From contig NC_014829.1 in NCBI RefSeq assembly GCF_000177235.2, forward strand, positions 186,001 through 250,000: a DNA stretch of 64,000 nucleotides, in the 5' to 3' direction. Under the pieces are notes generated by a model. It did not search any database, was not told where the DNA came from, and worked only from the letters and a program-made list of their open reading frames with translations. The stretch is from Evansella cellulosilytica DSM 2522 (GTDB taxonomy: Bacteria; Bacillota; Bacilli; Bacillales; Salisediminibacteriaceae). The position numbers and the translations under genes are program-made. Below, one piece after another: positions 41,768-62,708 of this stretch; within the stretch, counting starts at the first letter, position 1, and every line of letters begins with the position of its first letter.

Positions 41768-41889
41768 CAGCTTCCTTTTCTTTTGGTTCAAGATATTCTA
41801 TTCCAGCATGGCACTCATTATTCTATAAGTATTCTCTAGTAAATTAGTTTCAAAAGTCATCAGAAAAAGTTTTTTTCAATTAAATTCAG

Positions 41890-41935
41890 GTGTGACTTGG
41901 CAGGCAACCTTTTTATTCCAATGACTATATACAAT
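41890..41935 (+). promoter_or_regulatory. Shared island promoter element, copy 3
   Basis: GTGTGACTTGGCAGGCAACC plus T-run, one base different from copies 1 and 2, with TACAAT at 41930-41935 again 16 bases after CCTTTT. It lies 62 bases before the next start codon, 31 kb from the other copies. Confidence 0.6.
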
Positions 41936-41975
41936 AGAAATATAGAAAGTTAACAAAAAAGGAGATGTTGGAAAG

Positions 41976-42458
41976 ATGATGACTTTAAAAGAAAGATTCA
42001 AGGAAATGAAAGAAAAAAAGCAGATAGTATGGAATGGTAAAAGTGGACAGGAAATAGTGGAGAAAGCGATTGGAATTGTTGGTTTTGAGCCGATTGCCAA
42101 AATAGCGAAAGGGGATGATTGGGTTTTTGAAAGTGTTGAATACTATATCGGGAAGAACAGGAAATACCAGATGGGTCATCTTGTTTATGAAAGACAAGAA
42201 TATCGTTGTGAAGGAATCGATGGTGATATTGAGGTGAGAAAGCAAATATTTGTCTGTCCAGATGGTAGTATTTTAGTTTGCTTTGTCACACGGGAGGAAA
42301 ATAATTGTGGGAGTTGTGAGATGATCCATTGTAACTTGAACCGTATCATTTCAAATAACCAAGAACTAACGCAAGAAGAAAAAGAAGATATACTTACATA
42401 TCTTGCGATTGAGATAAATCAGTTTCTCGTATCTAGAGGAGAAACAATAAGGAATTAG
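41976..42458 (+). CDS. Hypothetical protein of the island promoter class
   Basis: A 160-residue protein, unrecognised. A helical, basic N-terminus (KERFKEMKEKKQIVWNGKSG) is followed by a beta-rich middle with a C-G-S-C-E-M-I-H-C cluster at about residues 113-121 that might bind metal. GGAGATG upstream of the start. It shares the unusual promoter with the genes at 9571 and 10602, suggesting co-expression, but no sequence likeness to them was noticed. Confidence 0.6.
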   Translation: MMTLKERFKEMKEKKQIVWNGKSGQEIVEKAIGIVGFEPIAKIAKGDDWVFESVEYYIGKNRKYQMGHLVYERQEYRCEGIDGDIEVRKQIFVCPDGSILVCFVTREENNCGSCEMIHCNLNRIISNNQELTQEEKEDILTYLAIEINQFLVSRGETIRN

Positions 42459-42580
42459 GGTCCAGCCTGGAAACACCATCATTAAAACAAGCAGCTGGAT
42501 AAGAGATAGAGTCAGTAGCAAAAAACATTAGGAAACAAAGTCCAAGTTTCAAACGAAAAAACATTCAAGGAGTGACGATT

Positions 42581-43123
42581 ATGCAATCTACAAGAGTAAT
42601 GGCAGCCGAACTATTAAGAGAGAAAATTGAACTAGCCAAAACGACTTTGAAATTTGTGGAAATAGTAGAGTCTGGATCTGGAGAGGGCTTTGAACCAGAA
42701 TATAACAAATCACGGCATCCTTTTCATAACGAGGATGGGACTCCATTGCTTGGAATAAGGGTCTATAAGGAACCGATTACTTATGAGGAACTAAACGTAG
42801 GTAAAGGTTCAATTGTAGCTTTGACCGAAATTTACCTTACAGACAGAGGTGATCTGGTTCGATTCTGCACATTTGAAGAAACGTTCTACAGTTCCAAAAA
42901 TGAAAAACCTAGAATTCAGATGAAAAGTTTCATTTCTGGAGACCAGTTAATTGCTGATGATGAATTACACTTCATCCTTTTCCATACTACCTGGCTCATA
43001 AGCCATCATTATGTTATTCAAGGAAATCACGAAAAAGCGGCTATAGCAATCGAAGAGAATAGAAGAATATATGACATTGTTTATGAGTGGTTGGAAAGAA
43101 CCGTCAGAGATAAAAAAGACTAA
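42581..43123 (+). CDS. Hypothetical protein
   Basis: A 180-residue soluble protein starting MQSTRVMAAELLREKIELAK. ATG at 42581 is preferred because AAGGAG is eight bases upstream. It has a conserved-looking middle RHPFHNEDGTPLLGIRVYKE and a C-terminal helical part with WLISHHYVIQG. It follows the 41976 gene by 122 bases and is ended by its own terminator. The two proteins have similar layouts (N-terminal helix, beta middle, helical end), so distant relationship is possible. No family recognised. Confidence 0.6.
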   Translation: MQSTRVMAAELLREKIELAKTTLKFVEIVESGSGEGFEPEYNKSRHPFHNEDGTPLLGIRVYKEPITYEELNVGKGSIVALTEIYLTDRGDLVRFCTFEETFYSSKNEKPRIQMKSFISGDQLIADDELHFILFHTTWLISHHYVIQGNHEKAAIAIEENRRIYDIVYEWLERTVRDKKD

Positions 43124-43135
43124 ATCAACAGTAGG

Positions 43136-43175
43136 AAAAGAAGTTTTTATTTTGCACCATTATAAAACTTCTTTT
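43136..43175. terminator. Terminator
   Basis: AAAAGAAGTTTT / AAAACTTCTTTT stem with a loop of about 16 bases, 12 bases after the stop. Confidence 0.8.
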
Positions 43176-43223
43176 CTGTCTACTTAACACAGAAGTATAA
43201 AATATATGGGGAGATGGTCCAGG

Positions 43224-44306
43224 ATGACGAACAACATAGTCAATCAGATTCAGCGTGAGTACAGAAGAAATCGGGAACTATCAAATTACAGCATCTTCGA
43301 TATAGAAGCTAGTCTTAAGAATCTTGCAGAGAAAGGAATTATATGGGTTCTGAAAGACTTAAGGGATATTTGTGAAGCAGAAGAAATATTGATAGAAAAA
43401 TACCTTCATGATTACAGAGCCAATCAGATTTACGACAACCTCGAAGAATTCCTCAATATTCAATCCTCCAAGAATCTTACCGAAGCAATTTCAAGTAAAC
43501 CCTCACAATCAACAAAACCCTCAAAAGAAAAGCAAACTAAGAAACGACAGCATCTTGAAGTAAGGGATGTAACTCATTTCATTGGTTATAAAAAGGCTAT
43601 GGAGCTAGAAAAAAAAGTAATTGAACTATGTCAGAACTTTCCTTCATACGAAGTTGACTACATTGTAAACCAGATAGAAAGAAGTGCTAGTTCAATTAAA
43701 GAAAGGATTGAAATGGGTGAACAAATATATGTAGGAGAAAAGTTTAACCAATACAGCATCGCTATAGGATCAGCAAAAGAAACCACAGCATGGCTCCAAA
43801 TATCAATGGGGCAGGAGTATATAACACGGGATCAATTTGATGAGTTGGATAACTTAACAACACAAGTGGTACGGATTCTAACAAAGAGCCTATCCAACAT
43901 TAAAGAGAAAGAGGGAAAAGGTATGGATTTGCCATGTCCCTATACACCTGATGTAAAGAATTTTGGTGCCTATAATAATGCCTTGCTGCTGGTTGAAAAG
44001 ATTTATGAGATTACAAATAGAAAAGAATTTTGGAAAGAAAAAATCATTGTAAAGAAACTAAGGAGACGTGCAACATCATGTGCTGCAAACATTGCAGAAG
44101 CACACCAACTATACATCCTAAAAAAGTTCCGTTTCTTCAATGATTCACTAAAGGCATTGGATGGTCTTGATAGTTTGTTGGAAACATGCTTATTCAAAGG
44201 GATTATTTCGGAGAAGGAATTAAAAGAGATCGGTGTGCTGAGGATCTCTATACGGAATATACTTTCGACAAAAATGTCAAACTTGAGTAAAGAAAAAGCA
44301 GGCTGA
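43224..44306 (+). CDS. Tandem four-helix-bundle (S23 / IVP / Avd-like) protein
   Basis: A 360-residue helical protein. Two copies of the 23S-rRNA-intervening-sequence / Avd-type bundle can be recognised: residues about 120-220 (YKKAMELEKKVIELCQNFPS, IERSASSIKERIEMGEQI, SIAIGSAKETTAWLQI) and about 238-350 (LLLVEKIYEITNRKEFWKEK, LRRRATSCAANIAEAHQL, DSLKALDGLDSLLETCLF). The pattern R-x-A-x-S-x-x-x-N-I-A-E is the hallmark. An N-terminal helical region of 115 residues is extra. Single bundles serve as Avd accessory proteins of diversity-generating retroelements; no reverse transcriptase or template repeat was found here. ATG at 43224 with GGGGAG upstream. Confidence 0.65.
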   Translation: MTNNIVNQIQREYRRNRELSNYSIFDIEASLKNLAEKGIIWVLKDLRDICEAEEILIEKYLHDYRANQIYDNLEEFLNIQSSKNLTEAISSKPSQSTKPSKEKQTKKRQHLEVRDVTHFIGYKKAMELEKKVIELCQNFPSYEVDYIVNQIERSASSIKERIEMGEQIYVGEKFNQYSIAIGSAKETTAWLQISMGQEYITRDQFDELDNLTTQVVRILTKSLSNIKEKEGKGMDLPCPYTPDVKNFGAYNNALLLVEKIYEITNRKEFWKEKIIVKKLRRRATSCAANIAEAHQLYILKKFRFFNDSLKALDGLDSLLETCLFKGIISEKELKEIGVLRISIRNILSTKMSNLSKEKAG

Positions 44307-44413
44307 ACAGAAAAAGGATTTAGAGGGGTCAACGGATCAATTCTCTTTTTTCTTGAAAGCAAACTATCTTCTGTAACTAACTGGGATTAATTCGATAACT
44401 CCCGATTTAAATA

Positions 44414-44456
44414 AAGTCCAAGTGTGCATAAAATAATGCACACTTGGACTTCTTTC
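44414..44456. terminator. Strong hairpin terminator
   Basis: Perfect 16-bp stem AAGTCCAAGTGTGCAT / ATGCACACTTGGACTT with a short AT loop. The rest of 44307-44646 has no supported gene. Confidence 0.85.
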
Positions 44457-44646
44457 AAGTGTACATTTTATTTTAATGGAAAATTATTGACAACGGACGG
44501 TAAATCTCTTAGTGCTAATTGGTAAAAAAGATGCCAATAATGGCAATGTTTTGTGTCCGTATTCATACCGATTAAACTTCCCTTTTAATTTGCCAACACA
44601 TTTGTTAAATGTATTGTAAGAAATGTATCAATAATTAATAACAATC

Positions 44647-45321
44647 TCATTTTCTTTCAATAAATCTTAAAAACTCTAATCCAAAAGCTGTTATTTCAAG
44701 TATTTCATAAGGTCTTGTACTGAATCTGTTAATACTGTCATCGAGAAGAAGAGACTTCGAGACCAAATCTTGAACATAAAACATATATATATTCTTATCG
44801 AGATTATAATATTGTGGTGTCCTAAAATCAGAGGTTTTCAACTCATGGTTGGCATCAAGTAGATTTCTATTCATTAAATCATCTTCGTTTTTAATTATCC
44901 CTTCATGGACCTTCCTGTAGACACTTAATATTTCAATTTGTTTCTCGCTTATTTTTGAAACAATATCTAAGAATGTTTCTGTATAATCTGTTTCATACGG
45001 GGCTATCATTTGGTTTACTAGAACTGATTTAAACCGATCAATCTTATCTTTTTGGTTATTCTGGCTAACTCTATTTATTATTGACTCAAACAAATCCCCA
45101 AACTGTTCGCTCCTTACATATTTCATGTCAATATTTCTTTCGTTGACATGTGAGTCCAGATATTTTTTTAGATCCTCAATAAAAGTGTTAATTCTTTGCT
45201 GTTTAAGTCTCCCACGGTAATCAAAAAATACTTCATTCAATAGGGTGCCAACAAAAGGAACTGCTCCCAAAGCTGACTTTGATAATGATACACCTGTATT
45301 TATTAATATTTCTTTTTCCAT
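44647..45321 (-). CDS. Hypothetical protein with hydrophobic N-terminal segment
   Basis: A 224-residue leftward protein. A moderately hydrophobic, glycine/alanine-containing segment at about residues 8-28 (GVSLSKSALGAVPFVGTLLN) precedes a helical body ending in ITAFGLEFLRFI. The opening could insert into a membrane, as in some abortive-infection proteins, but there is no family match I can name. ATG at 45321 is preferred, with GGGGGG upstream. It is divergent from the DarT-like gene, 410 bases away, and might be unrelated. Confidence 0.6.
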   Translation of the reverse strand: MEKEILINTGVSLSKSALGAVPFVGTLLNEVFFDYRGRLKQQRINTFIEDLKKYLDSHVNERNIDMKYVRSEQFGDLFESIINRVSQNNQKDKIDRFKSVLVNQMIAPYETDYTETFLDIVSKISEKQIEILSVYRKVHEGIIKNEDDLMNRNLLDANHELKTSDFRTPQYYNLDKNIYMFYVQDLVSKSLLLDDSINRFSTRPYEILEITAFGLEFLRFIERK

Positions 45322-45733
45322 CAAGAATCCCCCCACTTTTATATTTAAACTTAGTCATGTAGAAGTTCCAAAACGTCCATGAATGAGTGCAACAACTTAT
45401 AAATTCTGTTAATCTTGAAGCATTAATGTATTTTATTTTTATATCATAGCCTTTTCTGGGGTGATTTACTATACCAGATATATGTCAATGTAATTAGCTC
45501 AATATTTTAAGATTGCCCCATTTGTCCTCGGAGTATTTTATGTATTTCAAAGTAAAAAAGTTTCATACCTAGAATTGTTAATTTCGAAATGTTTAATTTT
45601 TCAATTAAAGTAAGAAATATCTAGAACAATCTTTAAGTATGTTTACATACAAAACGAAAATTGAGATGGAAATTAGTAATGTAGGCCATGCACTTTTGTG
45701 ACTTTAAGAAACGATTTAGGAGATGATGTAACC

Positions 45734-46366
45734 ATGTTTAGAGAAGATATTAAAAGAGCTGCAGAAGATAATGGAATACGATTCTTATTGCATTTTACTA
45801 GAGCAGAGAATCTTAATAGTATTTTCCGATATGGAATTTTATCAGTTTCAAAGCAAAAAAGTCTAAGTCTTGAAGTGTCGAGGAATGATCCAAATAGGTA
45901 TGACGAATTTTTAAATGCAACAAGTGTGTCTATTCATTTACCAAATAATATTCTACTGTACAAATATAAAAATAAGTTTAATTGTGAATGGGTTGTATTG
46001 GGCATAAAACCAGATATCATTTGGGAAAAAAGATGTGGATTTTGTAATGAAAATGCTGCAAGTTCTAATGTCTCTAAGATACCATTAAACAAAAGAATGA
46101 GTGTCGAATCTCTAAATGGGTTGTTTAATAACATAAGTGGAAAACCATCAAGAAGTAAATTAAACATTGATAAATCCTTAACAACGAGCCCTCAAGCTGA
46201 AGTCTTAGTTTTTGAAGATATAGAACCTTCCTATATTTGGGGCGTTGCATTTGAAAGCAATTATGCTAAAAATAAATATAAAGAAAATATTCCTAGTTCA
46301 ATAAAAATAGAAATAGTTCCCGAATTATTCCGTTTTGCCATAAGGCCTGATTACTTGCACTGGTAA
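45734..46366 (+). CDS. DarT-like ADP-ribosyltransferase
   Basis: DarT toxins attach ADP-ribose to thymidine in single-stranded DNA and block replication. Here RFLLHFTRAENLNSIFRYGI matches the family opening (xHFTxxxNLxSIxxxGIL). LNATSVSIHLPNN, CEWVVLGIKPDIIW, NENAASS and SPQAEVLVFEDIEP follow, the last holding the catalytic glutamate. About 210 residues, as usual. ATG at 45734 with TTAGGAG 11 bases upstream. The cognate antitoxin DarG (macrodomain) is absent from both sides, which is odd for a toxin. The 410-bp gap upstream contains only AT-rich sequence. Confidence 0.7.
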   Translation: MFREDIKRAAEDNGIRFLLHFTRAENLNSIFRYGILSVSKQKSLSLEVSRNDPNRYDEFLNATSVSIHLPNNILLYKYKNKFNCEWVVLGIKPDIIWEKRCGFCNENAASSNVSKIPLNKRMSVESLNGLFNNISGKPSRSKLNIDKSLTTSPQAEVLVFEDIEPSYIWGVAFESNYAKNKYKENIPSSIKIEIVPELFRFAIRPDYLHW

Positions 46367-46462
46367 AATTGGGTGTTATCTATAATATAAAACTATAATG
46401 AAAATTTATCTAACCTCTGACACTCAAATAGGAATTTGGGAAGATAATTTATAATCACTTAC

Positions 46463-46485
46463 TTTACACAACCCTGTTGTGTAAA
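46463..46485. promoter_or_regulatory. Perfect palindrome, candidate operator
   Basis: TTTACACAAC-CCT-GTTGTGTAAA, ten-base arms, 178 bases before the AbiH start. It has no T-run, so it is more likely a protein-binding site than a terminator. Confidence 0.4.
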
Positions 46486-46662
46486 CAAAGGAATGCGGTT
46501 AAATCAACATTGCTATTTCTATTTATTACAACAATTTTTTGAATGTTCTTCAATCCTTCTATTATACTTATTATGTAATATTCATTGATTTACTTTACTT
46601 TTTCTTTTTGGTGTTATTAGATATGTGATATTTAGCCTTTGAGAAAGGAATGATATAGTATA

Positions 46663-47604
46663 GTGGCTAATCTTTTTGTAATTGGGAATGGATTTGATTT
46701 GGACCATGGGTTAGAAACATCATACAATCATTTTAGAGAGTATCTCCTCTTAAACTATCCAGAAATAAAAATGGATGAGTTGATAGTACCTGATGAAATT
46801 CATTTACCTGATGGTGGCATTGAATATGATGATGCAGAAGTATTGTCCATGCTTTTTTATTTAATAAATACTGCTGAGCAAAATGAAGAAAAGTGGAGTG
46901 ACATAGAAACTGCACTAGGGTATTTAGATTTTAGTGAAGCGTTTGATTGGTTCGATGATATATTGGATAAAGATGGGGATATTGATATGTGGAAAACCGT
47001 ATATCGAAATGAAGATCTATCTTCTCAATTAGTCATTCCAACTACAAAGATACAAAACTTCTTTTGGGAATGGGTAAATTCAATAAGTCTTCACTCAGCA
47101 AGCCCGAAAAGCGACTTTATTAAGCTATTAAAGGATAAAGAGCAGTTTTTATCATTCAATTATACTGAAACACTAGAGATAGTTTATAATATTTCTCCGG
47201 AAAATATCTGTCATATACATGGAAAGCAGACTGAAGAGATTTACTTTGGCCACGGGAGCAAGGAAGACTATTATGAGAGATATATGCAAAGTCATATCGG
47301 TTCTCAGGACGGTTTAAGTAATATTGATGAACAGTTGAGAAAGAAGACAGAAAAGGCTCTTGAAGAAAACTTGGACTTTTTTGAAAGTTTAAGAGATGCA
47401 AATATAACAAATATATATTCGTATGGTTTTTCATTTAATGAAGTGGATGCTATCTATTTTGTGGAAATATGTAAACGCATTAACACTAAGAAAGTCACTT
47501 GGTCCTTTAATGACTATGACAAAGCTAATATAGAGAAGTACATGGAATTTTTGAGAAGCTGTGGATTTAAAGGTGATTTTAAGACATTTCATATAAGAGA
47601 ATAA
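46663..47604 (+). CDS. AbiH-family abortive infection protein
   Basis: The N-terminus LFVIGNGFDLDHGLETSYNH with F-x-x-Y-L is the AbiH signature, a nucleotide-binding-like glycine loop. Downstream, FLSFNYTETLEIVYNI and CHIHGKQTEEIYFGHG are further conserved blocks, and SYGFSFNEVDAIYF follows near residue 246. The 313-residue length is within the family range. Start is GTG at 46663; the ribosome binding site AAGGAA is rather distant. AbiH gives phage resistance in lactococci by an unknown mechanism. A terminator follows. Confidence 0.85.
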   Translation: MANLFVIGNGFDLDHGLETSYNHFREYLLLNYPEIKMDELIVPDEIHLPDGGIEYDDAEVLSMLFYLINTAEQNEEKWSDIETALGYLDFSEAFDWFDDILDKDGDIDMWKTVYRNEDLSSQLVIPTTKIQNFFWEWVNSISLHSASPKSDFIKLLKDKEQFLSFNYTETLEIVYNISPENICHIHGKQTEEIYFGHGSKEDYYERYMQSHIGSQDGLSNIDEQLRKKTEKALEENLDFFESLRDANITNIYSYGFSFNEVDAIYFVEICKRINTKKVTWSFNDYDKANIEKYMEFLRSCGFKGDFKTFHIRE

Positions 47605-47617
47605 CTAATGCCTTCAA

Positions 47618-47653
47618 CCATAGAAGTCCCTCCAAGATTTCTATGTTTTTTTA
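47618..47653 (+). terminator. Terminator after AbiH
   Basis: CATAGAA / TTCTATG stem followed by seven T. It isolates the transposition cluster from upstream cargo. Confidence 0.8.
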
Positions 47654-47704
47654 TTACAGTAAATTAAAAAAATAATAAAGTATCCATTTATTGCCCCTAG
47701 GCTC

Positions 47705-47734
47705 TTGAGCTTTCCTCATCAATAGATTTAAAAT
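47705..47734 (+). promoter_or_regulatory. Probable promoter of the recombinase-tns cluster
   Basis: TTGAGC at 47705-47710 and TAAAAT at 47729-47734 with an 18-base spacer, 33 bases upstream of the recombinase start region. Confidence 0.45.
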
Positions 47735-47766
47735 GGTTTTGTAAAGACATTTAGGGGGTGAAACTA

Positions 47767-48336
47767 TTGAAAGTTGTCCAGCCTATTAGGGATTTAAAGC
47801 AGCTTGAAGCGGTAAAAGCATATTTACGAGGGAAGAATAAAAGAGACTTTTTACTCTTTATGGTGGGAATCTCATCTGCTTTAAGGATTAGTGATATTTT
47901 GAAATTGCGAGTTAACCATGTATGGGATGGAAAGAAACCACTGGGGTTTATAGAAATGAATGAGAAGAAAACTGGTAAATATAAAAGGTTTCCGATTACA
48001 CCGAACCTAACAAAGGCTATCAAGGAATACATGAAGGAATTTCCTGAAAAGCAAAGGGAAGATTACCTGTTTACAAGTAGGAAAGGAATCAATCAACCGA
48101 TTTCTAGACAATATGCAGCATCAATGCTAAATGAAGCATGTGATATGGTCGGAATAAAAGAACGATTTGGGACGCACGGACTTCGGAAAACTTGGGCTCT
48201 ATTCGCATTTAAAAAAGGTATATCACTTGATTACATATGTATGGCCCTAAACCACAATTCTATTGCTGAAACTAAAAGATATATTGGGTTGTTGCAGGAA
48301 GATCTCGATAATTTATACCTTCAGGTGAACCTATGA
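47767..48336 (+). CDS. Compact tyrosine recombinase / integrase
   Basis: A 189-residue site-specific recombinase consisting almost only of the catalytic domain. The catalytic residues are all visible: R40 in SSALRISDILKL, a lysine in EKKTGK (about 67-71), H137 and R140 in THGLRKTW, H163 in LNHNSI and Y172 in ETKRYIG. The N-terminal core-binding domain is nearly absent. The start is probably TTG at 47767 (TTAGGGGG upstream) rather than GTG at 47758. It lies 129 bases upstream of the AraC-type gene that leads into tnsA, all on one strand. A resolvase or inversion role for the Tn7-like element is plausible; its site is not identified. Confidence 0.85.
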   Translation: MKVVQPIRDLKQLEAVKAYLRGKNKRDFLLFMVGISSALRISDILKLRVNHVWDGKKPLGFIEMNEKKTGKYKRFPITPNLTKAIKEYMKEFPEKQREDYLFTSRKGINQPISRQYAASMLNEACDMVGIKERFGTHGLRKTWALFAFKKGISLDYICMALNHNSIAETKRYIGLLQEDLDNLYLQVNL

Positions 48337-48465
48337 ATCAATTAAATAAGTTTTTTGAGATAAAAGCATTTGTTGCTGACTTTGTTACATGGATAAAAAA
48401 AACAATCCATTTTGACAATAGTCAATCCACAAGTGTTTTTTATTTTTAAGGAGGACAACGAAAAT

Positions 48466-49479
48466 ATGAATGCTATTTCATTAGTCTTGGATTACATTGA
48501 AGAACATTATCATGATGAAATCAATGAAAAAACGGTTGAGTATGTAACAGGCTGCACTTTTGAAGAATTTGCGAAGAAGTTTAAGGAAAAGACGGGGGTA
48601 ACGTTTTCTACATACTTAGTACGAAGGCAACTAACCAGAATAAATGATGAACTCTGCAACATTACCTGTGAAAAGGATTTGAACTGTTCACCATTCCAAA
48701 GTTGGGAAGAACTTTCAACCCTTTTTAAATCAGAATTTAAGATCCCTATTGATACAGCCACTAAGAATGAACACTTCATTCTTCAAGAAAAAATAGGGTC
48801 TAAGGAATGGAATATGTGTGACTTAGTTATAAGAGATTTGCTTAATAGATTTGAGTGTCCTAGTAAGGCTCTAAGGTACTTATTGTCACTTCAGCCCTAT
48901 TATTTTGAAGTGGATTCGGAAGTCATACAACCTTCAAGGAGTAATCTAATATCCAGTATTGTTAAGAAAGTACACGGAGAACTATCTCTAAGTGAGTTTA
49001 GAAAGATTGTTACCATACTGGAAAATTACTATATGCTGGAGAGTGATTACTATTCCAAACACTCAATTGATGTATCTAAAAGGTATATCTTGGTTTTTCG
49101 TGGATTAATAAATAAATTGGTATGGGAGTATGGAGCAGGATTTGATTATGAAGTGAATGAGTTGAAAACTCTGTGGTCAGTTTCACATGATAAAGAGCTT
49201 ATTTCACATAAGTGGCATTCTAATTTGTCGCAAAGTGTCATGGAGGCAATAAAACAGCAAGATTTAGGCAACATCTCTTTCGCCAATATAGATGAACTTT
49301 TTGGTTGGGTTGATGTTTATTTTAGCAAACAAAAAAAGAGAATAAACAACCAGAATTTTAATAAATTTACACGATACAAGTTGATTGAGGAAGGATGTAA
49401 AAATTTAGAAGAGGAAGATTTAACTACAATGATAAATACTCTTCTTGTCCAAGGGTTACTCTTTTTACAATTACGATGA
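48466..49479 (+). CDS. AraC-type HTH protein leading the tns operon
   Basis: A 337-residue protein. The first 65 residues (ISLVLDYIEEHYHDEINEKT, EYVTGCTFEEFAKKFKEKTG, VTFSTYLVRRQLTRINDEL) have the form of an AraC/XylS double helix-turn-helix, unusually placed at the N-terminus. The remainder is helical, of unknown family. ATG at 48466 has AAGGAGG ten bases upstream. It ends 36 bases before tnsA. It may regulate transposition or act as a further target-recognition subunit. It does not look like TnsE. Confidence 0.55.
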   Translation: MNAISLVLDYIEEHYHDEINEKTVEYVTGCTFEEFAKKFKEKTGVTFSTYLVRRQLTRINDELCNITCEKDLNCSPFQSWEELSTLFKSEFKIPIDTATKNEHFILQEKIGSKEWNMCDLVIRDLLNRFECPSKALRYLLSLQPYYFEVDSEVIQPSRSNLISSIVKKVHGELSLSEFRKIVTILENYYMLESDYYSKHSIDVSKRYILVFRGLINKLVWEYGAGFDYEVNELKTLWSVSHDKELISHKWHSNLSQSVMEAIKQQDLGNISFANIDELFGWVDVYFSKQKKRINNQNFNKFTRYKLIEEGCKNLEEEDLTTMINTLLVQGLLFLQLR

Positions 49480-49515
49480 CAAGTATTTTGATAACAAAGA
49501 GGAGAAACGACAATC

Positions 49516-50361
49516 ATGATTAGAGAATGGAACGAAACAACTATCAATAGGTTTCTGAAAGAAAAACGAGGACAAGGAATGGGTAAAGACTATAAGCCAT
49601 GGCTACAGGTTCAAGATATAGCCTCTAAGGGCAGATCCACTCGCATTTTTGGTCATACCACACAAAGGGTGCATCATCTGTTGAGTGATTTGCAGTTATA
49701 TTACTTCTATTTTTTAGAGTTTGATAATGATGTTGCTGACATAAGAGAGCAGTATCCTTTACTAGATTTCCATGACATGAATATTCAAGTGGACGAAGAG
49801 CTAACAAAGAAACTGTTTGATAAGAAGACTCAAGTACCACATATCTTTACGGTTTCTTTTTTGGTTACAAGAAAGGGAGAAAATGGTGAACCTTATTATC
49901 AAGCAAGAATCATCAAGCAATCGCATGAGTTGGAAAAAAGTGCAACCTTGCAACGAATTGAACTGCAAAGAAGGTATTTTGAGAAGAAAGGGATTGATTT
50001 TGGGATAGTTACAGAAAAAGAAATTAATAAACAATTGGCACGAAATATTGGTTGGGTATTGAATTCCTATGACATTCAAGATTACCCCATACTTACTTCC
50101 AATTTAGTGCACTTAAAACGGGATATGGTTCAGTGTCTATCCAATAAATATGATACGTTTCAAGGGGTTTTCTCCCGATTGGAAAGGGGATATAGCTTAG
50201 ATGAAGGTTTGGGACTAATTTTGTTTAAACATTTAATAGCCAATAAAGAAATAAGCATGGATTTAACCAAAAAAATCTATTTGACTTCTAGTATCGAAAA
50301 CTATCAGGTTGAAGTTGTGGGTAAAAATGGTGGTGATAATAGATATGCAGTTGGTCATTAA
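49516..50361 (+). CDS. tnsA: Tn7-like TnsA, catalytic acids substituted
   Basis: TnsA makes the 5'-strand cuts at Tn7 ends. The protein aligns well with E. coli TnsA: RGQGMGKDYKPWLQVQDI, RVHHLLSDLQL, DIREQYPL and RRYFEKKGI are shared blocks. But the residue corresponding to catalytic E63 (LLSDLEL in E. coli) is Q60 (LLSDLQL), and D114 (STDFLVD) is S114 (TVSFLVT). K132 is kept as K134 (IIKQS), while the Q130 position is Ile. So the nuclease centre looks lost while the fold is kept. At 281 residues it is full length and in frame, so it is probably still used structurally. It overlaps tnsB by 17 bases. The comparison uses the E. coli sequence from memory. Confidence 0.88.
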   Translation: MIREWNETTINRFLKEKRGQGMGKDYKPWLQVQDIASKGRSTRIFGHTTQRVHHLLSDLQLYYFYFLEFDNDVADIREQYPLLDFHDMNIQVDEELTKKLFDKKTQVPHIFTVSFLVTRKGENGEPYYQARIIKQSHELEKSATLQRIELQRRYFEKKGIDFGIVTEKEINKQLARNIGWVLNSYDIQDYPILTSNLVHLKRDMVQCLSNKYDTFQGVFSRLERGYSLDEGLGLILFKHLIANKEISMDLTKKIYLTSSIENYQVEVVGKNGGDNRYAVGH

Positions 50362-52471
50362 TGATTTATTACAAAGCACGGAAAATCCCGACCACATTCA
50401 AAGGATAGTTTGGGTAGACAATAAGAATCAACTTTGTTTTTTGGTCAATATCCGTAAATTATCATTTCCATACAGTGAGGGAATACACAATATAGAAGCA
50501 TCCTTTAATAGAGGTGAGATTATCAAGGTTAAAACAGATCCTTGGGCTATCAGTGTAGATGAAGAGGATTTATCAGAATCGGAAATTGAAATACGTGATA
50601 AAGCGTGGAGGCTAATAAATCAAATCTGTTTAACTCCAGAAATCTTTGATCCGAAGCAACGATCAGCACTCATAAAAATAGCTAGTAAGGATTTTGCCCT
50701 TAGTACAAAGACAGTTCGAAAATACTTAATACGGTATTGGACAAGAGGGATGATAAAGAATGCTCTATTACCCGACTTTAATAATTGCGGTAAACAGTAT
50801 GGGATGGATCGTAAATATAACAAAAAGGCGGGAAGGAAATTCGCTTACTCTTCTTCTATTCAGAGAGGAGCAATTACTGATGAATGGAAGGAAATCATTA
50901 GAATAAGCCTAGAAAAATACTACTTTATTCGTTCAAAGCCATCATTGAAATATGCTTATCAACAAATGGTAAAAGAGTATTTCTCCAAAGAGGATGAAAA
51001 ATCGGGCTATAAAGTATTGGATGTAGAAAAGCCGATTATTTCATATGACCAATTTTACTATTGGTATCGCAAGTGGTACAAGCCGGAAGATGCGATTCAT
51101 AAAAGAGAAGGACGAAGAGAATTTTTACAAAATTATCGAGCTATAACTGGTTCAGCCACAGAAGATTCTATGGGGATAGGCACATATGCCATTGATGCAA
51201 CGATTGGTGATATATATTTAGTTTCCTCGCTAGATAGAAACATTGTTATTGGTCGAAGTATTGTATATCTTTGTGTGGATATTTTTTCCCGTACCATAGT
51301 AGGGTTAGGTGTTGGTATTGAGAATATGTCCGGGCAGTCATTGAGGGTTGCATTGGCTAATACCTTTGAAAATAAAAAAGACTTTTGCAAACGAACACTT
51401 GATATGGAGATCGGAAATGATGATTGGCCAATACACTATGTTCCTCACACTTTATTGGCAGATAGGGGAAGTGAATTAATCTCGAATGAATTAACTCAAA
51501 TAGTAGAAAATCTAAATATTAAAATACAAAACACTGGTTCATATAGACCTGAATTAAAATCGGTTTGCGAAAAATACTTTCATATCGTTCAGCAACACAT
51601 AAGCCCGTTCCTACCAGGATCCATACAGAAAGATTATATGAAACGAGGTGGCCAAGATTACAGAAAAAAGGCAGTTCTTAACCTCAGCGAATACACTCAG
51701 ATTTTGGTTCGCTGCGTTCTCTATTACAACAATCATAACTTTCTTTCGGACTATCCTTTAACACAAAATATGATAGATGAAAAGATTCGGCCTATCCCGA
51801 TTGAGATTTTCAAATGGGGGTTACACAAAGGAAATGGCCAGCTAAGAACAATGTTATTAGATGCAATTCGAAGTAATATTTATCCAAAATCCCAAGCAAC
51901 AGTAACTCCCAAGGGCATTCATTTTGGCAATCTTTATTACACATGCTCTAAAGCTGTAAAAGAGAGGTGGTTTTCTAATGCTCGAATTCAGGGGAATTGG
52001 AAAATGGAAGTATATTATAATCCTCAAAGTGTAGCAACTATTTACATTCGGATAGATAGGCAAAACTATGAAGTCTGTTCTTTAATCGAGCAATATGAAA
52101 TGTATAGAGATGCCAAGGAGGAAGAACTTGTTAGCTTAAAGGAGAACCTGCGGTTACAAAAGGCGGAATATGTAGAAGCTCAAATGAATGGAGCTATGCA
52201 GTTAGCTCAGGATATTGAATCAATTGTTAAACAGGCGAAGGAGAAAACCAAAGACCAATCTCTTAATGGTGAGGTTCCTAAAGATATAAAGAATATTAGA
52301 GAAAATCGAGAAAAGGAGAGAGAAGTATTGAAAAGGGAACAACAAGCCGTAATAGATCAACAAAACATTGGAAAGCAATTGAACAAAGTAAATCATGATC
52401 TTGAATCGGTAAACGTGCTAGATATTTTCCGTAAAAAACAAAAGGAAGTGCTTCGTGATGAAGATAAATGA
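50345..52471 (+). CDS. tnsB: Tn7-like transposase TnsB (DDE)
   Basis: Retroviral-integrase-type transposase that binds the element ends, cuts the 3' strands and joins them to the target. The catalytic triad is intact: D284 in YAIDATIGDIYLV, D373 in LLADRGSELIS, and E409 in the S-V-C-E-K-Y-F segment, giving the usual D-35-E spacing. N-terminal HTH region about residues 80-130 (DFALSTKTVRKYLIRYWTRG). The C-terminal 100 residues form a charged coiled coil (EEELVSLKENLRLQKAEYVE), expected to contact TnsC. ATG at 50345 inside tnsA is chosen (GGTGG upstream). 708 residues, as for TnsB. The end overlaps tnsC by 14 bases. Confidence 0.93.
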   Translation: MQLVINDLLQSTENPDHIQRIVWVDNKNQLCFLVNIRKLSFPYSEGIHNIEASFNRGEIIKVKTDPWAISVDEEDLSESEIEIRDKAWRLINQICLTPEIFDPKQRSALIKIASKDFALSTKTVRKYLIRYWTRGMIKNALLPDFNNCGKQYGMDRKYNKKAGRKFAYSSSIQRGAITDEWKEIIRISLEKYYFIRSKPSLKYAYQQMVKEYFSKEDEKSGYKVLDVEKPIISYDQFYYWYRKWYKPEDAIHKREGRREFLQNYRAITGSATEDSMGIGTYAIDATIGDIYLVSSLDRNIVIGRSIVYLCVDIFSRTIVGLGVGIENMSGQSLRVALANTFENKKDFCKRTLDMEIGNDDWPIHYVPHTLLADRGSELISNELTQIVENLNIKIQNTGSYRPELKSVCEKYFHIVQQHISPFLPGSIQKDYMKRGGQDYRKKAVLNLSEYTQILVRCVLYYNNHNFLSDYPLTQNMIDEKIRPIPIEIFKWGLHKGNGQLRTMLLDAIRSNIYPKSQATVTPKGIHFGNLYYTCSKAVKERWFSNARIQGNWKMEVYYNPQSVATIYIRIDRQNYEVCSLIEQYEMYRDAKEEELVSLKENLRLQKAEYVEAQMNGAMQLAQDIESIVKQAKEKTKDQSLNGEVPKDIKNIRENREKEREVLKREQQAVIDQQNIGKQLNKVNHDLESVNVLDIFRKKQKEVLRDEDK

Positions 52472-54068
52472 ATTAGTTAATGGAACCAAAGCTCAAGTTG
52501 CAGAGTATAGGGAACAGGAAATATTGGAGTATCAAGGCAATCCTCTTATTGAGGCATTGCCTCCAATTTATTCTCAGGAGGAAGTTATTGATCGTTTAAG
52601 CATGTATCCTCCTTATAATGTGGAAGAAAGATATATGAATGACCATCAGAGAGTTCATCTGATCTCAAGATTGTTACAATATTTTCAAGCCATACCGATT
52701 CATCTGAAAATTGAGTCATCAATTTCAAGGTTAATTAGAACAGGTTATACTTATCGAAATCCTGTAAGCTCTACTTATGCACAGAGTTTTGTGGATAATT
52801 GGAACAATATACAGAATAAATCATTCGATAAGTCTATTATCCAGACAGGACAAACATTGAGTATTTTGGGGGTCTCTGGTGTAGGAAAAACACGAACATT
52901 ACAGCGAATATTACAAACTATTCCACAGGTGATTTCTCATGTTTCGTATAAAGGGAAAGCCTTAAATCATTATCAAATAACCTATTTGAAAATTGAGACT
53001 CCTTTTGATGGTTCCGTAAAAACCATTATTTACGATTTTATGTATCAGGTAGATCTACTCCTTGGCTCCAACTATTTCAATAGATATGTGAACAGTCATT
53101 TGTCAACAAGCCAACTAATGCCTATCATGGCTCAGATAGCTAAAAGTATAAACCTTGGAATGTTGTTTTTGGATGAGTTACAACATTTGAAGGGTATCAA
53201 AAGTTCTAGGTCATCACAGATACTAAACTTTTTTACTGCCTTAATCAATACGATAAATATCCCTCTTATTATGGTCGGAACCCCAAAAGCAATGGATGTC
53301 TTGCAATCACAGTTTAGACAAGCGAGAAGAAGCACTAATATGGGAAACATCATGTGGGATCGTTTTGAAAAGAATGACATATGGGATCTATTTGTTAGTG
53401 GTATGTGGAAATATCAGTGGATAAAAGAGGACGTGCTTTTTACAGAAGAAATTTCTTCAACCCTATATGATGAGTCCCAAGGGATAGCAGACATCGCAAT
53501 TAAGCTCTATATGATGGTGCAGTTACGTGCGATTAGTAGCTGTAAGGAAAGGATAACCACTGCGTTAATTAAACAAGTGGCTCAAGAAGAGTTAAAAATG
53601 GTTCAGCCTATGTTAAATATGTTAAAAAGCAAAGATTATAGCAAACTAGCAAAATACGATGACTTGATGCTACCAAAAATTGAGGATTTTATGGAACAAG
53701 AACGGATTACTGTTGATCAAAAACAGGTAATGAACTCACTCCAAGAGGGAGCCAAACGGAAAAATGAGCAACTACAATTAATTGATGACGCTACATTCCG
53801 TTTAGGGATGCTAGGTTTTAATAATGACGTTGCCGTTAAGGCAGTACAAAAGGCTATTTCTGAGAACAATCAATTAGAAGAGGTATCACAAATCGTAAAA
53901 GATGCTTTTCTTTTATTAAACAATAATGACAAAAGTACGGAAAAAGTAATAAGTAATGACCTAAGAACCATTATAAAAAAAGGGAAAGAACAACAAGTAA
54001 CTGCGTATCAAGCATTACTAGATGCTGGAGTAATTAAGCAAGATTACCCTGAGCGTGTTGTGTCATGA
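52458..54068 (+). CDS. tnsC: Tn7-like AAA+ regulator TnsC
   Basis: ATPase that links target recognition to the transposase. Walker A GVSGVGKTR begins at G138; Walker B LFLDELQHL has D239/E240. A sensor-type MVGTPKAM follows at about 276. An N-terminal 120-residue arm and a C-terminal 150-residue extension correspond to the TnsD- and TnsA/TnsB-interacting parts of E. coli TnsC. 536 residues. ATG at 52458 lies inside the end of tnsB, with AAGGAAG upstream. Its stop overlaps the tnsD start (ATGA). The presence of TnsC with a TnsD shows that this is the Tn7 branch and not an IS. Confidence 0.93.
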   Translation: MKINELVNGTKAQVAEYREQEILEYQGNPLIEALPPIYSQEEVIDRLSMYPPYNVEERYMNDHQRVHLISRLLQYFQAIPIHLKIESSISRLIRTGYTYRNPVSSTYAQSFVDNWNNIQNKSFDKSIIQTGQTLSILGVSGVGKTRTLQRILQTIPQVISHVSYKGKALNHYQITYLKIETPFDGSVKTIIYDFMYQVDLLLGSNYFNRYVNSHLSTSQLMPIMAQIAKSINLGMLFLDELQHLKGIKSSRSSQILNFFTALINTINIPLIMVGTPKAMDVLQSQFRQARRSTNMGNIMWDRFEKNDIWDLFVSGMWKYQWIKEDVLFTEEISSTLYDESQGIADIAIKLYMMVQLRAISSCKERITTALIKQVAQEELKMVQPMLNMLKSKDYSKLAKYDDLMLPKIEDFMEQERITVDQKQVMNSLQEGAKRKNEQLQLIDDATFRLGMLGFNNDVAVKAVQKAISENNQLEEVSQIVKDAFLLLNNNDKSTEKVISNDLRTIIKKGKEQQVTAYQALLDAGVIKQDYPERVVS

Positions 54069-55894
54069 TTATACAATTTCCAACACCCTATCCAGATGAG
54101 CTTTTGTTTAGTGTGATTGCTAGGTATCACATCCGATCGGGCAATGTTTTTTGGAAACACACATTGGAAGATTTATTTGGCAAGAGGACTATAAGTGCCA
54201 CGGTATTGTTACCTTCGGGAATCGGTTCTCTTGTTCAGCGGTTACCTAAAAACACGACATTAAATGAACAGATATTGATAGAGAAGCATACAATGTATCC
54301 TTTTTATACAGTGTTCATACCAACAGAAAAGGCTCAATCAATTTATGAATCAATGATAAGTAATGACGGAAAAAAGATATATATGCAATCCGGTATTATG
54401 GCAAGTTCGATACCACAAAATAAGTATTTAAAGTATTGTTCAGCTTGTGCCAGGGAAGATATTGCTACTTTTGGAGAAATGTATTGGCATCGAACTCATC
54501 AGTTACCTGGTAATCTCATTTGTACTAAGCATGAGTTGTGTTTAGAGGATAGCGATGTATTGATAACTCATTCTAATAAACATGCTTTTATCTTACCAAC
54601 CACTAGCAACTGTGATTTGAACAGAAAGAGTATGATTACTGAGACCAGCTTAATACAACTAAAAAATATTGTTTTACAAGCAGAGGATTTGCTGAATAGA
54701 AAGTATCAAAATCAAACATTTTCTCATTTTACACAGTTTTATCGCTATCATTTAATTGAAAAAGGTTATGCTAGTTTAAAAGGACAGGTAAAGCAAAAAG
54801 CGTTATATGATGCCTTTTATAACCTTTATTCTGAAGAGTTATTGAATACCCTTTGTATAGAGCCTAGGGCGACACAATGGATAGCCAATTTTTCAAGGAA
54901 ACATCGAAAATCGTTCCATCCATACTATCATTTGTTGATGCTCAACTTTTTTGATTTAAAAGTGAATGCAGCATTCGAGGAAACTTCTTTTGAAAATACC
55001 CCATTTGGTCATCCTAATTGGCCTTGTTTAAATGCTACATGTCCAGATTATAAGAAAAACGCCATTCCAGAGATAACGATTAGAAGATGTGAAAAAACGA
55101 AGAAGCTAATTGGACGATTTACTTGTCACACCTGTGACTTTTCTTATACAAGGAAGGGAATGGACCCCAACAAAGATGATTGTTACAAGTTTAGTCGAAT
55201 TATGGATTTTGGTTTCCTTTGGAAGAGGGAGCTGCAATTATTGTTAAATAAGGGATTAAGTTATCGGGAAGTTGCTAGGATACTTGGTGTTGATACCAAT
55301 ACAGTAATTAAATATGAAAAGAAAAATATTGAAAATAAACAAAAGGCGAAAGTTCGGATTGATAGTGATTTGGTAAAGGAACACCGTTATGAATGGATTC
55401 ATCTTCAAAGGGATTTTCCTGGCCTTTCAAAAACAGAATTGAGGAAGAAAAGGCCCGAAGTGTATGCTTATTTGTATCGTCATGATAGAGATTGGTTAAA
55501 GGTAAATTCACCGAAGAGGAAGAAGGTGGACCCAACAAATAACCGAGTCAATTGGCTAGAAAGGGATAAAGAAATATTAGAGAAGGTTCAGAAGGTTGTA
55601 AGTGAGTTAAGAGGCATTGATAAGAAGCCAGTAAGAATCACGGTTAAGATACTTGGAGATGGCATTGGTGAAAGAGCCTTATTGGAAAGACATTTGGATA
55701 AGTTGCCGGAAACGAGGGTGTTCATTGAAAAAGTTTCTGAATCAGAACAGGATTTTCGTTTAAGAAGGGTGAAGTATGTAATAAATGAAATGATGGAGAA
55801 GGGAGAAGAGATTAAAGAATGGAAGGTTCTGAGAAAAGCTGCTATTAAAAAGGAGTTTTATAAGGAATTTGTTGATTTCTTAAAACGGGAGTGA
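54065..55894 (+). CDS. tnsD: TnsD/TniQ-family target selector
   Basis: Sequence-specific DNA-binding protein expected to recognise the 3' end of glmS. The N-terminal TniQ domain carries a zinc site C125/C128/C153/H156 (YCSACARED ... LICTKHE). A second cysteine cluster is at about 315-365 (CLNATCPDY ... FTCHTCDFSY). A C-terminal helix-turn-helix follows (LSYREVARILGVDTNTVIKY, about 398-417) and then a long basic helical region. At 609 residues it is longer than E. coli TnsD (508). The location of the island right behind glmS fits this specificity, although not proven for this copy. It overlaps both neighbours. Confidence 0.9.
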   Translation: MIIQFPTPYPDELLFSVIARYHIRSGNVFWKHTLEDLFGKRTISATVLLPSGIGSLVQRLPKNTTLNEQILIEKHTMYPFYTVFIPTEKAQSIYESMISNDGKKIYMQSGIMASSIPQNKYLKYCSACAREDIATFGEMYWHRTHQLPGNLICTKHELCLEDSDVLITHSNKHAFILPTTSNCDLNRKSMITETSLIQLKNIVLQAEDLLNRKYQNQTFSHFTQFYRYHLIEKGYASLKGQVKQKALYDAFYNLYSEELLNTLCIEPRATQWIANFSRKHRKSFHPYYHLLMLNFFDLKVNAAFEETSFENTPFGHPNWPCLNATCPDYKKNAIPEITIRRCEKTKKLIGRFTCHTCDFSYTRKGMDPNKDDCYKFSRIMDFGFLWKRELQLLLNKGLSYREVARILGVDTNTVIKYEKKNIENKQKAKVRIDSDLVKEHRYEWIHLQRDFPGLSKTELRKKRPEVYAYLYRHDRDWLKVNSPKRKKVDPTNNRVNWLERDKEILEKVQKVVSELRGIDKKPVRITVKILGDGIGERALLERHLDKLPETRVFIEKVSESEQDFRLRRVKYVINEMMEKGEEIKEWKVLRKAAIKKEFYKEFVDFLKRE

Positions 55895-55899
55895 TACTT

Positions 55900-56517
55900 A
55901 TGTTCCGCAATGCACTTGAAGAGGTAGACAGTTTTATTAAATCAAATGTTTTTACGCTCTCTGGTAACGATTTATATAATTTGAAGAAAGATTTTTACGA
56001 TAAAAGTGTTGAGTTTATGGGGCATAGCAACAACTTAACAGGAATTACAGAACTGGTCGTTAATATGTATCTCAATCACTGGGTCGAGGCTCAAAGTCTT
56101 CCTTATACATTGAAAAGAAACTATAAAGTTAAGGGTGTAAATGGGAAAGAAAATGAATTAGATATTGCTTTTCTTGATAAATCTTTAGAAATTCAATACG
56201 GAATCTCCGTGAAGCGTGAGATTGGTTCTACTCGCTGGGAAACACATGAAAAATCAAGCACCTCCTATAAAGAGTTGACAAAGAAATACAGCGTTAGAAA
56301 TAACCTACTTCAAGATTACTGGAGATTAGATAATATTAAACGAGGTATTAGCCGAGCTTTACCTACTGTTACCATCATTTTTGAAGGTGTGAAGGTGGGA
56401 GAAGAAACGATGATAAAGAAATTAACTGAAGATACCCCTTCTTTTCAGTATTTGGTCTTATATCAACATCAAGAGGCAATATTCTATGATTTGAAAAAGA
56501 AACTTTGCATTTTGTAG
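55900..56517 (+). CDS. Fifth tns-operon gene: predicted PD-(D/E)xK nuclease-like protein
   Basis: A 205-residue protein in the place where E. coli Tn7 has tnsE, but not resembling it. It shows a possible restriction-endonuclease core: a helix with E51 (GITELVVNMYLNHW), then ELDIAF with D88, and after 14 residues GISVK with S103 and K105. The order and spacing are close to those of TnsA (E63, D114, QVK). A conserved-looking K-K-x-S-V-R-N-N segment follows. ATG at 55900 has GGGAG eight bases upstream; a GTG at 55891 overlaps the tnsD stop. Coupling to tnsD makes a function in transposition likely. The nuclease assignment is inference. Confidence 0.55.
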   Translation: MFRNALEEVDSFIKSNVFTLSGNDLYNLKKDFYDKSVEFMGHSNNLTGITELVVNMYLNHWVEAQSLPYTLKRNYKVKGVNGKENELDIAFLDKSLEIQYGISVKREIGSTRWETHEKSSTSYKELTKKYSVRNNLLQDYWRLDNIKRGISRALPTVTIIFEGVKVGEETMIKKLTEDTPSFQYLVLYQHQEAIFYDLKKKLCIL

Positions 56518-56619
56518 TAATGGTATTAAGTGAGTGGATACTTTAATAGCTGAAGGGATTGGCTTCTATAATCATTATTAGTAAACACAATAAAAGTAAG
56601 GTTAGCGGGTGGTTGAATC

Positions 56620-56949
56620 TTGCAAAAACTAAAAGCCGAAGTTGTAATAACAATTCCAGAGGATATGGTACTTATTACAAGAGTTGAATATGAAATGTTA
56701 AAGCAAAAAGAATTATCGGGTTTGTATTGGAACATGAAAGATCTTGAAAAACGTATCAATAAAAAGTCAGAATGGATCAAAGAAAATATTCTATATCCTG
56801 GAAGGTTCAGAAAGATACTTGACATTAATAAAGGAGGATTTGTTTATTATCCCGAAACAAAAGGTCAACACTGGTCTTTTCAGGCTACTAAAATGGCTGA
56901 ATTTCTGGATAATAACTTTGGAAATATATTTAGCGGGAAAATACAATAA
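56620..56949 (+). CDS. DUF771 family protein
   Basis: A 109-residue protein matching the DUF771 pattern: LYWNMKDLEKRINKKSEWIK, then ILYPGRFRKILDINKGGFVY, YPETKGQHWSFQATKMAEFL. The family occurs in phages and integrative elements and looks like a winged-helix or excisionase-type DNA-binding protein. TTG start with GGGTGG seven bases upstream. It lies 102 bases after the tns operon on the same strand and might be an excisionase partner for the tyrosine recombinase, but that is speculation. Confidence 0.75.
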   Translation: MQKLKAEVVITIPEDMVLITRVEYEMLKQKELSGLYWNMKDLEKRINKKSEWIKENILYPGRFRKILDINKGGFVYYPETKGQHWSFQATKMAEFLDNNFGNIFSGKIQ

Positions 56950-57048
56950 TGCGATTATTTTAATAATTGGGTTTTGACTTACTTTTGTTAATGTATATTC
57001 AATCGGTTTTTATTCAAAATGGTATGTATTAAAAATAAGGAGTAAAAA

Positions 57049-57543
57049 ATGAATCTATATGAATTATTTCAAATGTGGATAAATCATCCGAAAAAAGGAA
57101 GTGGTAGAAGAAATTTAGACAATACAGATGAATGTTGGAAAAAGGTATTACAAGACATTCGTAATTGGGAGAGCAGTGAAGATAAAAATGATAATGATTT
57201 TGCAAAATATCTACTTTATACAGGAAAAATAAGAAGAGTTCATTTAGACCTGAATGAAGTGAATTATAATAATCATTATGTTTCATGGACGTCAACTGAA
57301 AATCTAGAAGATTTATATTGGTTCAATTCGTCATGTGATCATACAATAATTACAGCAGAAGCAACAAAAGATAATCCAGGAATTAGTATTAAGGGATTTA
57401 TAGAAGCTATGAAAAGTGATAATAAAAATTTTGAATTAAACTCACCGGCAATCAGAGCGGAACAAGAAGTGATTTTTCCATTACAAGAAAAATCAATAAT
57501 AAGCATTGAAAGAATATTAAAATTAAATAGAAATGAAAAATGA
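57049..57543 (+). CDS. Hypothetical protein, possible ADP-ribosyltransferase fold
   Basis: A 164-residue protein with AAGGAG before its ATG. Three short segments are reminiscent of R-S-E type ADP-ribosyltransferases: GKIRRVHLD (Arg strand, about residue 61), VSWTSTENLEDLYW (S-T-S-like, about 75-88) and RAEQEVIFPLQ (E-x-E-like, about 138-148). The spacing is compatible, but no family match is certain. A single gene, no clear terminator after it; 57544-57872 contains a 9-base inverted repeat ACTTAGTT / AACTAAGT (about 57631-57654) and a 29-codon frame that I do not support. Confidence 0.5.
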   Translation: MNLYELFQMWINHPKKGSGRRNLDNTDECWKKVLQDIRNWESSEDKNDNDFAKYLLYTGKIRRVHLDLNEVNYNNHYVSWTSTENLEDLYWFNSSCDHTIITAEATKDNPGISIKGFIEAMKSDNKNFELNSPAIRAEQEVIFPLQEKSIISIERILKLNRNEK

Positions 57544-57872
57544 TATTGAATCCTATGAGCAGAAGGATTTTTGATGTGAATAATAGTTCTAGTAACCACT
57601 TATTTTCCTGTAACTCCCTTCAGGACGAAACTTAGTTTCTCCCTTGGAACTAAGTTGGTTTCCAAATGGAAAAGAAATTTTATGTTAATGCAGAAAAAAA
57701 TACAAAAACTTAATAACTATCAAAAAACCGCAGTATATCAAATTCATTTAATAAACAATTCATTTTATTAGTGTTGATGGAGTCTGTTTAGAATCAAATC
57801 CTTTATTTATAAGGGATTCGAAAAAATAAATAAATGATAAGATAAAGAAAATGGAAGTGGGAGGAAAATGTC

Positions 57873-58607
57873 ATGAAATTTGAACGTTTAGACACAGTGG
57901 ATAGAATCCTACTGACGTCAGAGGATTCGAAACGTTTAGATGATTGGTGGCTCAATATTCACGAGGGAGCTTTTAATGAATTTCGCCCAGTTTTGGAAGA
58001 GGGCGTGATTATACAAGAACTTGATCCGCACTTGAAATTCGACAAGGACTTTGTAAAGGCACACGGTTTAACCACTTCATTAGCTTTACTGTATTTCAAA
58101 CAATTAGATGATGTGCGGGTCTATTATGAAATTTACCGGACGATTGGTGAGAACCAGGTGGAACATATTTTGGAAGGCACCAAGAATTATGTTGAGTTAA
58201 AAAGTGACCTTACGATAAACAAAAATAATCATATCGGTCTAAAAATAGAACATGCTGTCCACTATCTGGACGCTGTTACTTCAAGCCATATCGCTTTGAT
58301 GAATTACATGGAACTGTATAGGGATGAGCGGGAGCGAGTATCATTTCAGAAATTGCGAAAAACTAAAACTAAAAAAACTAAAAAAGGAAAGAAAAAGAAC
58401 ACTCGGCCAATAAATATGGTGGTTTATAATATAAAAATTCCAGATGTACATATTACTGAAGAAGAAAGACAAGCATATAAGAAAATGAAAGAAGCATGGA
58501 AGGTCAGAGGACACTGGAGAACCTTGCCATCAGGGAAAAAGACATGGATAAAGCCTCATATAAAGGGAAATAAAGAAAAGCTGGAACCAAATATCTATCA
58601 CTTTTAG
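57873..58607 (+). CDS. Hypothetical protein with phage-type C-terminal tail
   Basis: A 244-residue protein. The N-terminal 155 residues are helical and contain repeated aromatic segments (RLDDWWLNIHEGAFNEFRPV). A very basic stretch KTKTKKTKKGKKKN lies at about 164-177. The end reads WKVRGHWRTLPSGKKTWIKP, a motif often seen at the C-terminus of uncharacterised phage and plasmid proteins (R-G-H-W-R ... G-K-x-x-W-x-x-P-H). GGGAGG upstream of the start. Function unknown. Confidence 0.65.
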   Translation: MKFERLDTVDRILLTSEDSKRLDDWWLNIHEGAFNEFRPVLEEGVIIQELDPHLKFDKDFVKAHGLTTSLALLYFKQLDDVRVYYEIYRTIGENQVEHILEGTKNYVELKSDLTINKNNHIGLKIEHAVHYLDAVTSSHIALMNYMELYRDERERVSFQKLRKTKTKKTKKGKKKNTRPINMVVYNIKIPDVHITEEERQAYKKMKEAWKVRGHWRTLPSGKKTWIKPHIKGNKEKLEPNIYHF

Positions 58608-58776
58608 TTTGTAGGTTGAAAATTAGGGGGACATTCTTCATTGAAAAAAGGTAGAAAAGTGAGTTCCTATATAACTTGTTAGCATATATTTTCCTTTTTT
58701 AATAGAGCAATAGAAAAGCAGGGATTAAGAATCATAGATACTAAAATAATAGAATTCTACAATAATTAGATAAAAG

Positions 58777-58806
58777 AGTATCCCATAAATACAGGGATGC
58801 TTTTTT
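58777..58806 (+). terminator. Terminator
   Basis: AGTATCCC / GGGATGCT stem (one G-U pair) with a nine-base loop and six T. It ends transcription from the left before the RloC-like gene. Confidence 0.8.
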
Positions 58807-62707: not shown

Positions 62708-62708
62708 A

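Follow-up and report, generated by a model that had tools for sequence, protein, structure and literature searches.

A clade of Tn7-like elements in Bacillales and Clostridia has lost the catalytic acids of TnsA, one of the two DNA-cutting enzymes of the family, while keeping the gene under strong purifying selection, and the DNA around these genes suggests that the elements insert as whole circles left between two identical copies of a tiny transposon. As far as we could find, this way of moving has not been described before for the Tn7 family. It is inferred from sequence and was not assayed. The element that led us to this group lies in a 64,000-nucleotide stretch of the Evansella cellulosilytica DSM 2522 chromosome (NC_014829.1, positions 186,001 to 250,000; henceforth the window, in whose coordinates all positions are given). 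There, two identical 555-bp mini-elements enclose 54.1 kb carrying tnsABCD, a recombinase and the cargo, downstream of glmS.

A TnsA clade without the Tn7 active site

The ORF at 49516..50361 (+) (281 aa) is a full-length TnsA, with Pfam TnsA N- and C-domains and a phmmer match to the solved TnsA 1F1Z (E 2e-40) in which the substitutions are visible. An AlphaFold2 model (pLDDT 89.5) keeps the TnsA fold and matches 1T0F/1F1Z at E 1e-20. The columns E63, D114, Q130 and K132 of Tn7 TnsA read Q60, S114, I132 and K134 in window numbering, confirming the sequence-only reading, which had reported the replacement of the two acids and of Q130 in a gene embedded in an overlapping, otherwise intact operon. 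The isoleucine at Q130 is, however, less telling than that reading held, given that this column is T or S in most intact Firmicute TnsAs too. The gene overlaps tnsB (50309..52471, +), a DDE transposase that keeps D..D..E, and the overlaps continue between tnsB and tnsC (52455..54068, +), an AAA+ ATPase, and between tnsC and tnsD (54065..55894, +), the target selector for glmS (PF15978, E 5e-135, and PF06527). A second TnsA of the same genome, 40% identical, is intact at E63, D114 and K132.

The loss is not a property of this one element. Of 397 genomes of the order, 76 have TnsA, and the full-length proteins fall into two groups, 45 with E63 and D114 (henceforth intact) and 17 in which D114 is S, T or N and E63 is often Q (henceforth dead). 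The addition of named species and of a phylum sample gave 62 dead and 79 intact sequences, after one long-branched, broken sequence (L091) had been set aside. D114 is kept in 0 of the 62 and in 79 of the 79. With the catalytic columns left out of the tree, the dead sequences are one side of a single branch (SH-aLRT 97.9), i.e. D114 was lost once, while E63 changed about six times. K132 is kept in 62 of 62, and the conserved columns that relaxed in the dead group are mainly 63, 82, 93, 94 and 114, and partly 112, 149 and 160. Among close members dN/dS is 0.075–0.165, so the loss is old and specific and the protein is still needed.

Mini-elements enclosing the tns operon

The anatomy of the element, which lies outside the coordinates of the sequence-only reading, is in our view the larger point. 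In the window, glmS (5623..7425, +; 600 aa, Pfam SIS and GATase), whose 3′ end is the Tn7 target attTn7, is followed 24 nt after its stop by a 555-bp sequence (7450..8004) that recurs with 100% identity and in direct orientation at 62153..62707. Both copies together are bounded on the outside by the 5-bp target-site duplication ATTGT (7445..7449 and 62708..62712). Each copy (henceforth X) contains no gene and has inverted ends (TATCCCCCTG...CAGGGGAATA). A weight-matrix scan identified two TnsB-type 17-bp repeats pointing in from each end, at 7479 and 7500 (7479..7516, +) and at 7874 and 7979 (7874..7995, −) in the first copy, and at 62182 and 62203 (62182..62219, +) and at 62577 and 62682 (62577..62698, −) in the second. 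Within the element such repeats occur only in the two X copies, with 0.4 expected per 103 kb. X therefore looks like a complete mini-transposon without genes, and the tns operon lies outside it, in the 54,148-bp segment between the copies (henceforth E, 8005..62152). We read E as the body of the donor circle. Its cargo is rich in defence genes (26742–47604 and 58936–62017), among them AbiTii, a type II restriction enzyme with C5 methylase, a DarT-like gene, AbiH, a PADLOC candidate ATPase (PDC-S06) and a ResIII helicase. It also carries a ParM/Alp-like plasmid segregation actin (36694–37680, −), a hint that E is or was a circle that segregates, although no replication gene was recognised in the segment.

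Near-identical direct repeats of 342 bp or more enclose the tns operon in 10 of 11 dead-TnsA loci and in 0 of 8 intact ones (Fisher p 1e-4). Besides the window, the same anatomy is seen in the genomes G063 (567 bp), G250 (475 bp), G099 (masked stretch inside), G791 (342 bp), G670 (352 bp), G452 (an array, 1179 bp), G788 (about 4.2 kb, masked stretch inside), G481 (1440 bp, running about 1 kb beyond X) and G029 (474 bp). X is mostly 0.34–1.2 kb, with 98.6–100% identity between the copies of one element. In the eleventh, G261, an X-like end pair lies next to glmS but no second copy was found, and the draft contigs G161, G005 and G150 could not be judged, since long repeats break such assemblies. 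In eight of the nine glmS-linked cases X starts 24–26 nt after the glmS stop (235 nt in G250), and E is 30–63 kb in the eight loci tabulated. Exact outer target duplications were found in five (ATTGT in the window, GTTTT in G250, AAAAT in G788, CCCAT in G452 and GCAAT in G029), whereas they are inexact in G791 and absent in G063 and G099. The triplet on the E side of the glmS-proximal X is TAG in 8 of 8 loci (the window, G063, G250, G099, G791, G788, G452 and G029) and also in G261, and the other inner flank is roughly its inverse (CTA/TTA; 8005–8020 and 62137–62152 in the window).

By contrast, none of the eight intact elements is enclosed by direct repeats of 300 bp or more at 95% identity; a 4.8-kb repeat around the intact element of G181 starts in 16S ribosomal RNA sequence and was not counted. 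Six intact elements at glmS could be delimited, and the six are ordinary Tn7-like elements, with the right end about 25 nt past the glmS stop, tnsA inside, and the left end, with the same exact 5-bp duplication, 13.8–20.3 kb away.

X-like sequences also occur on their own. Directly next to the window element, at 62713–63258, lies a second, gene-less pair of Tn7-like ends (TGT...ACA, with its own inverted repeats) followed by TAGTAG, like the E side of X, which is probably an older solo mini-element at attTn7, and a related piece (81% identical) lies inside the element at 11887–12165. In locus L079 (about 2260–2820; G128:C1:2773587-2774111) a solo X-like mini-element sits at the 5′ part of a broken, intact-type tnsA. 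Finally, in L186 (about 2560–4900, window-scale 65560–67900) one forward and one reverse TnsB-type repeat of the same kind as in X lie about 2.3 kb apart with small ORFs between, perhaps a further non-autonomous transposon with cargo.

Recombinases beside tnsA

In the order sample, 15 of 17 dead loci carry a site-specific recombinase directly upstream of tnsA on the same strand, against 0 of 45 intact loci (p 1.5e-12). In the window this is a short tyrosine recombinase (47758..48336, +; PF00589, E 4e-24) with R, K, HxxR, H and Y residues and an 84% identical relative in the same place in locus L032. The ORF between it and tnsA (48412..49479, +) has a shorter relative in L032 and is otherwise not conserved there. 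Elsewhere we found XerC-like tyrosine recombinases, small serine resolvases and one larger serine recombinase, i.e. at least three unrelated kinds. Given that the dead group is one clade, these are not 15 independent events, but the kind of recombinase was swapped repeatedly inside it (the closely related dead TnsAs of L012 and L013 have a tyrosine and a serine recombinase, respectively), which points to a need for the activity and shows that recombinase modules are exchanged. The association is not universal. In Clostridia several dead loci have a tyrosine recombinase 2–10 kb upstream, mostly in the opposite direction, G452 has a serine resolvase just after tnsD, QNSK Bacillus lineages have one 26–30 kb downstream, and Thermoanaerobacterium-type loci have none near, nor does G481 near tnsA.

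Upstream of the short tyrosine recombinases of several relatives, about 149 bp before the conserved start of the protein, lies the core TTTACACAA-CCCTG-TTGTGTAAA with inverted arms, at which similarity between elements stops. L093 (Cytobacillus gottheilii) has no mismatch to L032 in the 200 bp left of the spacer and differs from it by about 14% to the right, whereas to the right it is almost identical to L092 and to the left unrelated, indicating a natural crossover within the spacer. This break is thus a recombination joint and not the right end of the transposon, as the element starts at glmS, 40 kb away. Upstream regions of the serine resolvases also carry inverted motifs, but no clear version of the core seen in the relatives was recognised in the window copy, and no convincing short-spacer inverted repeat was found in X.

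Mode of transposition and comparison with known systems

The explanation that we favour, with moderate confidence, is that TnsA has become a non-cutting subunit and that the piece recognised by TnsB is not the large element but X. On a circular donor (E plus one X), TnsB would nick and join only the 3′ strands at the ends of X into the site picked by TnsD, 25 bp past glmS. With no TnsA cut the donor would stay attached (Shapiro intermediate), and replication across X would complete a cointegrate, so that the whole circle ends up in the chromosome between two identical X copies and a 5-bp target duplication. An active-site mutation of TnsA in a CRISPR-guided Tn7-like system gives over 95% cointegrates, defined as the donor backbone between two copies of the mini-transposon (PMC8188705), and X-E-X at attTn7 has the structure of that product. 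With an active TnsA only the gene-less X would be cut out, so that loss of TnsA catalysis would be what lets such a system carry its own genes. We therefore take dead TnsA and X-E-X as linked, although sequence alone cannot tell the order in which they arose. TnsA is presumably kept because it still binds partners and DNA. No transposition product or circle has been observed, and no plasmid record among those listed carries a close relative of this TnsA, none carries X, so the circle is unproven, and no close relative was found in phages. The recombinase core lies in E and not in X, and so cannot resolve an X-E-X cointegrate directly; the enzyme may act on circle dimers, on two co-resident elements or on a cointegrate of the whole X-E-X, and also swaps cargo between elements. 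Excision would be by recombination between the X copies, leaving a solo X, but in this we have little confidence.

The natural switch to cointegrate-forming transposition, one of the two alternatives offered by the sequence-only reading, is thus well supported by inference. The other, that the cut was passed to another protein, is not supported and seems very unlikely, since the candidate, a 208-aa ORF overlapping tnsD (55891..56517, +) with, by eye, a PD-(D/E)XK-like look (ELDIAF...ISVKRE), has no detectable homologue in any of the 20 related loci compared and no family match that supports a nuclease, and we take it as cargo. More plausible, though still unlikely, is that X-E-X is a stable composite moving by its outermost ends, replicative transposition of the whole 55 kb giving a classical cointegrate with two copies of E that the recombinase resolves at its core beside tnsA, as in Tn3 or Tn5053. 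This would give the recombinase an obvious job and fits the outer target duplications equally well, but it does not explain why the X copies are identical or nearly so within each element while X differs strongly between elements, which favours duplication at each insertion, and some lineages lack a recombinase near tnsA.

Homologous recombination of a circle carrying E and X into a solo X already sitting at attTn7 would yield the same final structure, and X-like sequences do exist in genomes without a TnsA match. Yet this needs a matching resident X each time and leaves unexplained why the anatomy goes with dead and not with intact TnsA, and we consider it improbable. It is also very unlikely that other acidic residues have rebuilt the TnsA active site. 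K132 is invariant, E63 is kept in 19 of 62, and columns 73, 87 and 138 are more often acidic in the dead clade, so a moved active site is not formally excluded, but the loss of D114 is complete, intact relatives never vary at E63 or D114, none of the three columns is invariant, and the column-73 residue (window D70) sits, in the model, ten residues past Q60, just after the end of the same helix. Simple decay of the gene can practically be set aside, given a full-length gene overlapping in its operon, the low dN/dS, the kept fold and one ancient loss retained through deep divergence across Bacilli and Clostridia.

A wider reading, which we hold to be only somewhat more likely than not, is that dead-TnsA systems are a distinct class of mobile element with a circle life cycle, in which a roughly 0.5-kb mini-transposon serves only as the landing gear, site-specific replicative transposition at attTn7 brings in a whole circle with its own genes, and recombination between the two mini-transposons lets it out again, leaving solo mini-elements behind. 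In this view loss of a nuclease, rather than gain of an integrase, turned a transposon into an integrative element. Whether Tn7-family elements cut and paste or copy was thought to turn on having or lacking TnsA. Benler et al. (PMC8649781) link loss of the tnsA gene with resolvases and say that the presence of tnsA homologues does not support such a role elsewhere. Neither Faure et al. (PMC10293859) nor a 2024 review (PMC11406308) mentioned natural catalytically dead TnsA in the passages searched, nor did further searches, which did not reach most subscription papers, so that novelty is likely but not proven. An old, widespread lineage in which TnsA is present but dead makes surveys that count TnsA by presence unreliable. 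It also gives a natural system for asking what TnsA does besides cutting, and would offer site-specific insertion of whole circles at a safe site.

Like Tn7 and ordinary Tn7-like transposons at glmS, the window element has a TnsABCD operon, an insertion about 25 bp past glmS, a 5-bp duplication and arrays of TnsB-type repeats at both ends, but the TnsA catalytic acids are absent, both kinds of end lie within each X, the tns genes lie outside the end pair, between two copies of a mini-element, and the segments are large. With Tn5053-like and type V-K CAST elements, which have no TnsA, are replicative and carry a resolvase or none (PMC8649781, PMC8188705), it shares a TnsB without, by inference here, a working 5′-strand nuclease, hence cointegrates, and a recombinase, often present there; here, however, TnsA is present and conserved but catalytically dead, the target is attTn7 through TnsD, and the end pair is a mini-element. 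Unlike in a composite transposon made of two IS, the flanking copies do not encode a transposase. The proposed mechanism would resemble that of IS26/IS6 translocatable units and pseudo-compound transposons, in which a circle with one copy of a small element appears to insert by cointegrate formation and to end between two direct copies, except that here the mini-element carries no transposase and the machinery is Tn7-like, lies in the circle and is site-specific. Lastly, in laboratory TnsA active-site mutants (D90A in V. cholerae Tn6677, D114 type in Tn7) a single active-site loss gives mostly cointegrates (over 95% for D90A, PMC8188705), whereas the loss described here is natural, fixed, ancient and coupled to a different element anatomy.
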